From Eubacterium sp. (GTDB lineage: Bacteria; Bacillota; Clostridia; Lachnospirales; Lachnospiraceae): a stretch of DNA of 64,000 nt. Location of the stretch: the NCBI GenBank assembly GCA_017433825.1, contig JAFRGL010000009.1:49080-113079 (forward strand), read 5' to 3'. The notes under the pieces are model-generated. The model saw nothing but the letters and a program-made list of their open reading frames with translations, made no database searches and was not told where the DNA came from. Below are positions 27,286 to 57,029 of this stretch, piece by piece (the first letter of the stretch is position 1; each line of letters begins with the position of its first letter). The translations under genes were made by a program, and so were the position numbers.

Positions 27286-27427
27286 TATAAGCCTGTAGGT
27301 TTTCTGAAGGAGACATCCGCAGCCCCGGTACTTTGCGATTCGCAAGCCGCAGGCTGGCGAGAGCATTAGTACCGCTGGAGCGAGGACTAAGCGAGAGCGG
27401 TCTCCGGAAGAAACATACAGGCTTATA
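27286..27427. ncRNA. structured RNA-like element, copy A
   Basis: A 142-bp element whose ends pair perfectly over 12 bases (TATAAGCCTGTA / TACAGGCTTATA). Inside are stems GGAGAC/GTCTCC (27309-27314 / 27400-27405) and GGTACT/AGTACC (27327-27332 / 27368-27373), and a variable loop (27333-27367) with its own small hairpin. Conserved single-strand blocks include CATCCGCAGCCCCGG, CGAGAGCATTAGT and GGAGCGAGGACTAAGCGAGA. The same blocks, with compensatory base changes in the stems, occur at 56886-57029. It lies between the end of atpC and the start of nudC. Strand of transcription is not known. Open frames across it (27333-27872) share a peptide with copy B only because the DNA is repeated. Confidence 0.75.
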
Positions 27428-27470
27428 CCGTAGTCTATCTGATCCGACAGTTTTTTATTATTTTTACTTT

Positions 27471-27737
27471 TTATTCTTCATCCAGTTTAAAGCTTCCGGA
27501 CAGAAGTGTTGCCGATTCCGTATCCACCGTCAGGATACCGCCCTCGGTACGCCCCTTCTTCTCCGTGCCGTCCGGCAGAAGAATCCGGCAGACGCCGGGT
27601 TTTACGCCCGTTACGAAAGGAATATGTCCCGCCAGAACGGCCAGATCTCCCTCCGTGCCTCTTACAATCACCCTGGCGGCATCGCCTTTGAACACGTTGC
27701 CGTCCGGGGAAGCCGCTGTAAAGGAAAATGTTTTCAT
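27471..27737 (-). CDS. atpC: F-type ATP synthase epsilon subunit, short form
   Basis: Central-stalk epsilon subunit that joins gamma to the c ring. At 88 residues it holds only the N-terminal beta-sandwich (SPDGNVFKGDAARVIVRGTE, GDLAVLAGHIPFVTGVKPG, GGILTVDTESATLLSG). It lacks the C-terminal helical hairpin of the usual ~130-residue protein, which normally brakes ATP hydrolysis. The stop is followed by an A/T-rich stretch, with no sign of a broken remainder in another frame. It is the last gene of the atp operon and overlaps atpD by one base (TAATG). Confidence 0.93.
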   Translation of the reverse strand: MKTFSFTAASPDGNVFKGDAARVIVRGTEGDLAVLAGHIPFVTGVKPGVCRILLPDGTEKKGRTEGGILTVDTESATLLSGSFKLDEE

Positions 27738-29134
27738 TACTGCACCTTCTTTGCCTTCTCCACCACGTCGTCGATGGTTCCCGCGAAGATGAACGCGGAC
27801 TCCGGAAGATCGTCATGCATACCCTCGATAATCTCCTTAAAGCCGCGGATGGTTTCGGAAAGGGGTACATAAACTCCCGGAAGGCCGGTGAATTTTTCGG
27901 ATACGTGGAACGGCTGGGACAGGAAACGCTGAATCTTCCTGGCTCTTGCCACCAGAAGCTTGTCCTCATCGGACAGCTCGTCCATACCCATGATGGCGAT
28001 GATGTCCATCAGTTCCTGGTATCTCTGAAGGATTCTCTGCACTTCCCTGGCCACGTCGTAATGCTCCTGTCCCAGGATATCCGGGGAAAGGATACGGCTG
28101 GTGGACTCCAGCGGGTCAACCGCCGGGTACAGGCCCTGGGAAGCAATGGACCTTGAAAGTACCGTGGTGGCGTCCAGATGGGCGAAGGTGGTGGCCGGCG
28201 CCGGGTCTGTCAGGTCATCCGCAGGTACATATACTGCCTGGATGGACGTAATGGAACCCCTTCTGGTGGAGGTAATCCTCTCCTGCAGCGTACCCATTTC
28301 ATTTGCCAGGGTGGGCTGGTAGCCTACCGCAGAGGGCATACGGCCCAGCAGAGCGGATACTTCGGAACCCGCCTGGGTGAAACGGAAGATATTGTCAATG
28401 AACAGCAGAACGTCCTGGCCCTCCTGGTCACGGAAATATTCCGCCATGGTAAGTCCGGAAAGGCCTACTCGCATCCTGGCCCCCGGGGGCTCGTTCATCT
28501 GGCCGTAAACCAGTGTGGTGTTGGCCAGAACGCCGGACTCTTTCATTTCGTTATACAAATCGTTGCCTTCACGGGTACGCTCGCCTACGCCGGTAAATAC
28601 GGACAGGCCGCCGTGCTCCTTGGCTACGTTATTGATAAGCTCCATGATAAGAACGGTTTTGCCTACGCCTGCGCCGCCGAAAAGGCCGGTCTTGCCGCCC
28701 TTGGAGAAGGGGCAGATAAGGTCGATGACCTTGATGCCGGTTTCCAGGATTTCCGTGGAGGTGGAAAGCTCGGAATAAGACGGTGCCTGACGGTGGATAT
28801 TCCACCGCTCCACGCCCTCCGGCGCGGGCAGGTTGTCCACCGGCTCGCCCAGCACGTTGAAGATTCTTCCCAGAGTGGAACGGCCTACCGGCACGGAAAT
28901 GGCTGCACCGGTGTCCGCCACGGGCGTGCCTCTTTTCAGTCCGTCGGTGGAGCTCATGGCTATGCATCTGGCGGTGTTGTCTCCGATATGCTGGGAAACC
29001 TCAACCGTGAGGGTTTTCTCCCCGTTTTTCATGGTGAGGGCATTGTATATGGCAGGAAGCCTGCCTTCTTCAAATCTGACATCGACAACAGGGCCCATAA
29101 CCTGAACAACGCTGCCGATATTGGTGTCTGACAT
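27737..29134 (-). CDS. atpD: F-type ATP synthase beta subunit
   Basis: Catalytic subunit of F1, 465 residues, normal length. Walker A ([17 protein letters not shown], about 149-165), catalytic Glu in [11 protein letters not shown], Walker B ([20 protein letters not shown]), and the C-terminal DELSDEDKL, equivalent to the DELSEED lever of the family. It makes or splits ATP in the cytoplasmic head. Between atpG (13-base gap) and atpC (one-base overlap). Confidence 0.99.
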
Positions 29135-29147
29135 AGTTTAACCTCCT

Positions 29148-55682: not shown

Positions 55683-55704
55683 CCTTTCTTGCGCCTCCCG
55701 TCTG

Positions 55705-56850
55705 TTACATCCTGTCAAGGAGTTCCCGGTTTACCGGCACGGAGGGTTCGTCCGCCGTGAAATAAATCCGCTCTTCGGTCTCCTTGTCGAAAATATGCAC
55801 CTTGAAGGGTTTCAGGTTGAAACGTACGGCGGATGAAGATGTATCCACCTTGTCTTCCGCAGGAATAATCGAGCGGATGGCCACGCCGTCCAGCGCGTCG
55901 TGGTAGGAAACCACGGACGTATCCCGGCCCATGACCTCTACAGCGCTTAAGCGGCAGGTCAGTGCGCCGGCATCATCCAGGACAAATCCTTCCGGACGCA
56001 CACCCACGTAAACTTCCCTGTCTTCCACGCCGGAAATATCCAGCACCGGCTCATTCCCGATGTACAGCACGCCGTCTTTCACGCAGCCGGAGAAAACATT
56101 GATGGGCGGGGTGCCCAGGAATTTGGCCACGAACAGGTTGACCGGGTCGTCATATACGGTCTGGGGCTTTCCTATCTGCTGCACCCTGCCTTCCTTCATA
56201 ACCACGATCATGTCCGAAATACTCATGGCTTCCTCCTGATCATGGGTAACGAAAATAGTGGTAACGCCCGTCTCCCGCTGAATCCTCCGGATTTCCTCCC
56301 TGGTCTGCAGACGCAGCCTGGCATCCAGATTGGACAGGGGCTCGTCCAGAAGCAGCACGCGCGGAATCTTCACCAGTGCCCGGGCGATTGCCACCCGCTG
56401 CTGCTGGCCGCCGGACAGTGCCGCGGGCTTTCTGTCCATATACTTTTCAATCTGCACAAGCTTCGCCGCTGCCTCAACTTTCTCCTTCATCTGTTCCTTG
56501 GTCAGCTTATCCGCGCCTTTCAGGTTTTCCAGCGGGAACATGATGTTCTGGCGCACGGTCAGATGGGGATAGAGGGCGTAGTTCTGGAACACCATGCCCA
56601 CGCCTCGTTTCTCAGGCGGAAGACCGGTTACATCCTCATCGTCAAAGAGAATCCTGCCCTCCGTAGGCGCTTCCAGGCCGCAGATCAGATTCAGCGTGGT
56701 GCTTTTTCCGCAGCCGGAAGGCCCCAGAAGCCCGATAAGCTTGCCGTCCGGGATTTCGAAATTGAAGCTGTCCACGGCAACGACTTCTCCTTTGATCTTC
56801 TTGTTCAAATTGGGGTATCTTTTCGTAAGGTTCTGAAGTACGACTTTCAT
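55705..56850 (-). CDS. carbohydrate ABC transporter ATP-binding protein (MsmK/UgpC type)
   Basis: A 381-residue cytoplasmic ATPase. Walker A GLLGPSGCGKSTTLNLICGL, Q-loop MVFQNYALYPHLTV, signature LSGGQQQRVAIARALVKIP, Walker B VLLLDEPLSNLDARLR and switch His in IFVTHDQEEAMS. The C-terminal ~140 residues form the TOBE/MOP-like regulatory domain (DREVYVGVRPEGFVL). Unusually the ATPase gene comes first and the binding protein last in the operon, and all three transporter parts are present. Structured element B lies directly upstream, overlapping the likely promoter area. Confidence 0.95.
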   Translation of the reverse strand: MKVVLQNLTKRYPNLNKKIKGEVVAVDSFNFEIPDGKLIGLLGPSGCGKSTTLNLICGLEAPTEGRILFDDEDVTGLPPEKRGVGMVFQNYALYPHLTVRQNIMFPLENLKGADKLTKEQMKEKVEAAAKLVQIEKYMDRKPAALSGGQQQRVAIARALVKIPRVLLLDEPLSNLDARLRLQTREEIRRIQRETGVTTIFVTHDQEEAMSISDMIVVMKEGRVQQIGKPQTVYDDPVNLFVAKFLGTPPINVFSGCVKDGVLYIGNEPVLDISGVEDREVYVGVRPEGFVLDDAGALTCRLSAVEVMGRDTSVVSYHDALDGVAIRSIIPAEDKVDTSSSAVRFNLKPFKVHIFDKETEERIYFTADEPSVPVNRELLDRM

Positions 56851-56885
56851 ATTCTGAATCAGCCCTTTCTATAATCTATACACGA

Positions 56886-57029
56886 ACACATGGCCTGAAT
56901 GTATTCTGAAGGGAACATCCGCAGCCCCGGCACTTTGCGATTCGTGAACAAAGTGAACGAGAGCATTAGTGCCGTTGGAGCGAGGACTAAGCGAGAGCGG
57001 TTCCCGGAAGAAACATTCAGGACGTGTGT
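56886..57029. ncRNA. structured RNA-like element, copy B
   Basis: A 144-bp element, homologous to that at 27286-27427. Outer arms ACACATGGCCTGAATGT and ACATTCAGGACGTGTGT pair at 15 of 17 positions. Inner stems: GGGAAC/GTTCCC (56911-56916 / 57000-57005) and GGCACT/AGTGCC (56929-56934 / 56968-56973). Blocks CATCCGCAGCCCCGG, ACTTTGCGATTCG, CGAGAGCATTAGT, GGAGCGAGGACTAAGCGAGA and CGGAAGAAACAT are shared with copy A, while the 56946-56957 loop differs fully. It lies between the S66 gene stop and the start of the ABC ATPase gene, so it may be part of a leader for the importer, or a passive mobile element. Confidence 0.75.

Follow-up and report, generated by a model that had tools for sequence, protein, structure and literature searches.

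A dispersed family of small hairpin elements with a structured core in Lachnospiraceae, probably mobile

What kind of element are the two homologous structures that stand in one Eubacterium contig, and is it an RNA that selection has preserved in them? The window, that is, the whole stretch of DNA analysed here, comprises 64,000 nucleotides (nt) of Eubacterium sp., family Lachnospiraceae (GenBank assembly GCA_017433825.1, contig JAFRGL010000009.1, positions 49,080 to 113,079 of the forward strand). A sequence-only reading had placed the two elements, here called copies A and B, at 27286-27427 and 56886-57029, had taken the paired changes between their stems as selection on RNA structure, and had proposed a HEARO/omega-RNA-type element or another mobile or regulatory RNA. 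Our analysis shows that both belong to a family of hairpins with a structured core that are scattered through genomes of Lachnospiraceae, and that these are probably small, non-coding mobile elements similar to the miniature inverted-repeat transposable elements (MITEs) and REPINs. Directly observed are the family with its structure, covariation and spread, one empty site, target duplications beside some of the copies in two genomes, an orientation to genes that is random, and the slower change of the core at orthologous sites. In the following, L with a number denotes a locus and G with a number a genome, G000 being the window's own genome.

Both elements are present at the positions first given, on the + strand. 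The 24-mer GGAGCGAGGACTAAGCGAGAGCGG occurs twice in the window with at most three mismatches, and not once in 100 shuffles. The pairing-preserving exchanges between the copies are present as well, namely GGAGAC/GTCTCC to GGGAAC/GTTCCC, GGTACT/AGTACC to GGCACT/AGTGCC, and the outer CCTGT/ACAGG to CCTGA/TCAGG. The inverted repeats that close the copies measure 22 nt (86% complementary) and 18 nt (89%), and comparison of longer flanks extends both. With its arms, copy A occupies 27259-27455 (left arm 27259-27302, right arm 27411-27455, outer ends AAAAACTGCCGG and CCGACAGTTTTT) and copy B 56866-57045 (left arm 56866-56906, right arm 57010-57045). A covariance model built from 24 aligned members (model R1) matches core plus inner arms at 27296-27416 in copy A (99.8 bits) and 56898-57016 in copy B (104.7 bits).

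The core, about 100 nt long, is a three-way junction made of a closing stem P1, a long hairpin and a mini-hairpin of two base pairs (bp) with a GNRA loop. In copy A, the P1 strand GGAGAC (27309-27314) pairs with GTCTCC (27400-27405), the long hairpin runs from CGGTACT to AGTACCG (27326-27374), and the mini-hairpin GC-GAGA-GC lies at 27391-27398. The corresponding parts of copy B are GGGAAC (56911-56916) with GTTCCC (57000-57005), CGGCACT to AGTGCCG (56928-56974), and GC-GAGA-GC (56991-56998), all of them on the + strand as in copy A. Long hairpins of the family are of the type ACGYCGGYACTTARYGA...GARYTTAGTRCCGCTRCGT, often with an internal tandem GA/GA. The core also has a three-base contact, TCC/GGA, in place of which distant members carry a freely varying helix, for example TACGAAAACGT/ACGTTTTCGT in L112 and ATATCAACGT/ACGTTGATAT in L109.

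Evidence for selection on base pairing, first seen in two copies, becomes far stronger with more of them. We used two alignments: A1, an unfitted MAFFT alignment of 24 sequences, and A3, which holds 112 matches from 100 chosen loci (110 distinct rows). In A1, 92.0% of paired cells can pair, compared with 82.8% after shuffling and 31-48% when the structure is slid along the alignment; in A3 the figures are 92.2%, 70.1% and 30-46%. Double, pairing-preserving changes affect 26 of the 28 pairs of A3, with 753 double-changed cells against 215 in shuffles (0 of 500 shuffles reach 753), and the covariation score reaches 0.615, compared with 0.199 after shuffling and no more than 0.113 after sliding. 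One measure, further pair types in A1, gave no excess over shuffles (266 of 500 were as high). It is important to note that the A3 figures lean towards structure because this alignment was fitted to the model, although the unfitted A1 shows the same, and that many A1 rows were collected with a pattern that fixed the columns around GAGGACTAAG and CGGT, so that invariance there is partly by construction. The mini-hairpin loop is GNRA in 104 of the 110 rows, GNYA in five and of another type in one, and a strict pattern finds the tandem GA/GA unbroken in 67 rows, where shuffles would give 0.4.

The same holds when copies are compared at orthologous sites. Over 15 ortholog pairs, each of which entered the sample only if both orthologs scored in the model search, differing sites make up 4.5% of the core (61/1342), 9.1% of the flanks (1559/17140) and 17.6% of the arms (203/1156). 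In 12 pairs the core has changed more slowly than the flanks, and in 14 more slowly than the arms. Twenty double changes were counted in the core against 0.9 expected, 19 of which restore a Watson-Crick pair; the events number about half of 20, because each pair was read in both directions. In the arms, 44 double changes compare with 12.7 expected, and 25 are restoring. Single core changes, again in both directions, comprise 8 GU and 3 AC. Some sites recur across genera: one before a tpiA-like start in G000 (L002) and in G825 and G813 (L309, L316), and others, in G000 and in a metagenome-assembled genome from goat, next to pnp-like and dut-like genes, all gene names being assigned by eye. Such sites are either old or favoured.

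How widely is the family distributed? Model R1 finds 17 copies, on both strands, in the window's 2.6-Mb genome, where blastn gives 16 rows, two of them parts of one copy. The sample holds six further genomes of the genus, and blastn finds matches in each of them but, at that sensitivity, in none of the 54 others. The covariance model, in a survey that scored at most nine places per genome, detects the element in 110 of 397 Lachnospiraceae genomes and 101 of 334 genera; the model building and genome search that the sequence-only reading had proposed yield many further copies in this family of bacteria. Complete counts in 17 chosen genomes range from 1 to 71, the richest having 71, 55, 33, 27, 24 and 21. 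In a class-wide sample searched with a model R2, 10 of 391 genomes are positive, all of them Lachnospiraceae. An exact-pattern search returned 42 named matches labelled Lachnospiraceae, Clostridiales, Eubacterium, Clostridium and similar, many from rumen or gut by title; a single record labelled Bacteroidales has a flank resembling a Lachnospiraceae bin and is probably mis-binned. Two exact patterns have no match in viral contigs, and one 161-base query has none in plasmids and phages. The family is apparently undescribed so far, judging from Rfam 15 and a literature search: within the window no Rfam family reaches its gathering score, the surroundings of copy A searched at E<=10 give only noise, and the two matches among 20 loci with other members both lie off the element. 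No prior description was found among the publications listed, a search with supplementary tables outside its scope and thin coverage of subscription journals. An unnamed entry may exist in large candidate lists such as the 3161 models of PMC8040213, which presents 250 palindromic structured-RNA candidates from human microbiomes.

The arms behave differently from the core. They are long inverted repeats whose sequence varies as their complementarity stays: 192 of 204 distinct copies beat 20 shuffles, with a median arm span of 54.5 nt, an upper estimate from local alignment. Among nine copies of the window's own genome with 95%-identical cores, inner arms are 63% identical and outer arms 34%. 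In G354 and in G232, arms are common to several copies within the genome, together with common terminal repeats. At two orthologous sites, L266/L271 and L263/L268, both arms are very different and the core is kept, so that the arms look replaced. Wobble-type mismatches in the arms of the 204 copies comprise 261 GT and 276 AC, with no strand bias.

Signs of mobility come from several sources. In G354, 6 of 19 copies inspected (L150, L152, L155, L159, L162 and L168) have direct repeats of 11-13 bp beyond the common terminal repeat TAGGCAATTGCGAAAC, always equally far from it, although the repeat of L150 is not above its own 30 shuffles; in G232 perfect 10-bp direct repeats flank 3 of 26 copies inspected (L180 by score, L233 and L236 by eye). 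An empty site is known for L326, in the genus of G237: 204 nt in G825 and 8 nt in G826 lie between flanks that are 91-92% identical. The copy is absent from G828 and G813 too, which have 70 and 89 unmatched nt there, and L326 has 134 bp at 94% identity in common with L323. Forms that have lost most of the core by internal deletion also occur (L230 and L239; L231-L234). Orientation was taken from 207 copies, not made distinct, of which 133 had both neighbours called by a simple open reading frame (ORF) rule: 49 stand in tandem sense, 48 in tandem antisense, 25 between convergent and 11 between divergent genes. Most loci in two locus scans hold one match, though opposite-strand pairs exist. Eleven close pairs of this kind (L094, L110, L106, L148, L157, L188, L197, L211, L221, L222 and L224) are all arranged as - then +, with 5' ends facing and spacers of about 40-940 nt; close same-strand pairs were seen at L192 and L209.

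Several observations weigh against a mobile element. Over the 172 copies scored, direct repeats average 9.1 against 7.5 in shuffles, a slight excess that is partly due to other repeats. The G825/G826 empty site has no target duplication and may be a deletion in G826. Terminal repeats differ between genomes, which is odd for one transposase, and inspection by eye of the 40 largest clusters of ORFs beside copies, from 198 loci, revealed no transposase. A RAYT partner received no support either, as no element matches at E<=1 in the 94 kb of 15 RAYT-like loci from element-rich and five from element-free genomes. Three of the 15 ortholog pairs show no slower change in the core than in the flanks, the apparent constraint may be inflated by model-based ascertainment of both orthologs, and conservation of copies in place is unusual for a purely selfish element.

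In the search for a mobilising partner, Y1-class genes were divided by frame length and score into IS200-like and longer RAYT-like ones, and the scan for elements covered the loci of the latter group. Of 20 element-rich genomes 8 have full-length RAYT-like frames, and of 20 element-free ones 4 (p=0.30); with fragments counted on both sides the numbers are 11 and 6 (p=0.20), and an association with RAYT was rejected. The window's own genome has a RAYT-like Y1 transposase gene (L368:2401-3366, contig C10) with no element within 6 kb. The exact end pattern of G354 has 41 matches, and those inspected are elements, deletion forms or truncated ends; the search there for a parent insertion sequence with the same ends came upon a 3.5-kb end pair enclosing genes that by eye are not transposases. 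Two reverse-transcriptase genes of the RT_UG26 type, at L005:1501-3006 (G000, contig C12) and L112:1346-2913, have RT-5 RNA (RF03026) upstream and adjoin one copy each. In L112 the element stands between the RT-5 RNA and the gene, on the opposite strand, as if inserted. The element is not itself RT-5 RNA, as the RF03026 match covers other sequence beside the copies. In a tblastn search over all loci collected, no other close RT_UG26 was found, the one distant match (L366) being in a locus chosen for another reason, and the adjacency is a lead, not a link.

On the mobile-element reading, each element would be a long imperfect DNA hairpin with the conserved core of about 100 nt at its tip, folding as a single strand. 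A protein encoded elsewhere would recognise the core in its folded form, be it RNA or single-stranded DNA, and the hairpin would be mobilised in trans into intergenic sites. After insertion, the core would stay under constraint, whereas the arms would change fast and occasionally be rewritten on both sides. A bolder and rather doubtful proposal, which would amount to a new mode of mobility, is that only the core is transmitted, its RNA or folded DNA strand serving a trans-acting enzyme, possibly a reverse transcriptase, as substrate, and that the arms arise anew at each site by fold-back copying of the target flank, giving each insertion inverted repeats of its own. Hints of this, short of proof, are the unrelated outer arms beside 95%-identical cores, the changed arms around kept cores, and the arms of L112, one of which starts a few bases past the RT-5 RNA match and the other of which is its inverse. 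Furthermore, the 10-nt sequence TTTTAGTGTA, which occurs once in the empty G826 allele, reappears in inverted form at the far end of the G825 site that carries the element, which could be chance. Target copying does not explain everything, because the outer arms of L326 (about 30 nt per side) are seen neither in the target nor in its near-identical sister L323.

Is the core preserved as RNA or as single-stranded DNA? GNRA loops and GA tandems speak for RNA of the + strand, as does an excess of GU over AC among core pairs (68 to 32) that appears only when pair 53-125 of A3, with 29 of the 61 AC cells, is excluded; with all pairs the count is 69 to 61. Nine tRNAs taken as a control contain 12 GU and 0 AC in 209 pairs, a small set in ARAGORN's own structures that is indicative only. 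Against RNA speak the rarity of wobble pairs in the core (69 of about 2820 standard pairs), the lack of GU bias in the arms, the random gene orientation and the absence of surplus promoters on the + side: for 200 distinct copies the score there is 7.62 against 7.56 shuffled, and 9 or more matches are reached in 30 copies on the + and 29 on the - side. A promoter-like TTCATA-18-TATAAT (56846-56875, +) ends just upstream of copy B. On our reading, the arms are maintained as DNA, and what is preserved in the core is a folded single strand, for which RNA is slightly more likely than DNA. The earlier claim of selection on RNA structure is upheld in part, as selection on pairing, with RNA as a plausible active form.

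Could the copies instead be stand-alone small RNA genes, each with its own promoter, whose cores bind a protein as decoys or regulators and which were spread by old duplication? The GNRA loops and other strongly kept motifs, the conditional GU excess, the slower core and the tpiA-like site common to several genera would all suit such genes. However, the + side shows no promoter enrichment, even though copy B has its promoter-like site, the long arms are left unexplained, and both arms are so different at L266/L271 and L263/L268 that no fixed promoter can reside in them; we regard this explanation as unlikely. A somewhat better case, which we still consider improbable for the covariation as a whole, can be made for mutation alone, with template switching during replication rewriting one arm of a quasi-palindrome from the other, a mechanism described for quasi-palindromes in the part of PMC8794818 consulted. 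It would account for the few wobble intermediates, the symmetric GT and AC mismatches of the arms and the joint change of both arms at the two orthologous sites just named, and it may well explain the arms. Yet it would erase non-palindromic features such as the tandem GA, a CT bulge and the mini-hairpin, which persist across genera, and the core evolves more slowly than its flanks.

A role in the mRNA of adjacent genes, as intercistronic elements or terminators, is very unlikely. The intergenic location, the surplus of convergent over divergent contexts, the T runs that end some copies and the slightly commoner A just left of the arms (0.33 against 0.30) are compatible with it. But tandem sense and antisense contexts are nearly equal, which also led us to reject a cis-regulatory leader or riboswitch; of the candidates named at the outset, a mobile RNA fits best and a regulatory leader for a neighbour does not stand. 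T runs of four or more stand at the right end of 32 of the 204 copies, compared with 25 of 204 for nearby background, no terminator-like site was found at copies A and B, and the idea of an intrinsic terminator was dropped. General insertion into pre-existing terminator hairpins was likewise rejected, given the long arm spans, the T runs that are not enriched and the differences of both arms between orthologs. HEARO/omega-RNA or another known Rfam family, suggested by a mobile, structured, multi-copy element, has next to no probability left: Rfam 15 matches no element in the window, the copy A stretch, the 20 loci or the RT-5 loci, and its RT-5 matches lie beside two copies.

Seen as mobile elements, the copies resemble several known systems and differ from each. 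As in bacterial MITEs (reviewed in PMC10969869, used here in part), they are short, non-coding, intergenic and multi-copy, with terminal inverted repeats and, in some G354 and G232 copies, target duplications; unlike MITEs, they have a conserved three-way-junction core that is common to sets with unrelated terminal repeats, and no parent insertion sequence was found. With REP/REPIN sequences and their RAYTs they share dispersed intergenic hairpins, presumed mobilisation in trans and compensatory changes, which a passage of PMC3116915 notes in REPINs as well. The difference is that the element is one asymmetric three-way-junction core and not two inverted REPs, and that no element lies near the 15 RAYT-like loci of element-rich genomes and no RAYT association appears. 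RT-5 RNA, with its RT_UG26 gene, adjoins the L005 and L112 copies and is a distinct sequence. Integron attC sites, defined by paired R'/R'' and L'/L'' boxes and an integrase in the genome, are recombination sites in which the folded single strand is conserved more than the sequence, and the element is like them in this respect. The family amounts to a large set of structured elements, apparently without a name so far, in bacteria of gut and rumen, and it offers many natural experiments on the evolution of base-paired sequence, because at orthologous sites paired bases of the core change together and the arms diverge rapidly. Should the core be recognised as a folded strand, the few structure-directed mobile systems known would gain a further member, and the hunt for its enzyme would become directly testable.

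The surroundings of the two copies in the window agree in large part with what had been noted. Copy A, said to lie between atpC and nudC, is flanked by a NudC-like NUDIX gene (Pfam) and, on the other side, by ATP synthase genes, with an atpD-like frame at 27737-29134 (by eye) and a shorter unannotated frame nearer the element. Copy B, said to stand on the 5' side of a sugar ABC operon, has an ABC-transporter ATPase gene on one side and an LD-carboxypeptidase gene on the other (both Pfam), the sugar specificity being assigned by eye only; its right arm overlaps the last codons of the carboxypeptidase gene. These neighbouring genes are on the - strand, opposite to both elements.

Some variants of the core were also seen. 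In L192 (G359, about 3.4 kb), two ordinary copies are accompanied by four cores of another type, CTCGTTACTTAACGA...GAGTTTAGTAACG, whose side hairpin is longer and which model R1 does not list at E<=0.01. Lone hairpins with the motif CTTARYGAG...CGARYTTAG, by eye without mini-hairpin or junction, stand at L341 (G836), L295 (G837) and L343 (G600) and are perhaps a smaller relative of the element. A longer subtype (L014, L015 and L128 in G000, L026 in G005, L032 in G004) is distinguished by an additional folded insert, which separates GAGG from (C)TAAG in the core, as in GCGCTGAGTGCC..GGCACTC..TTAGCGC..

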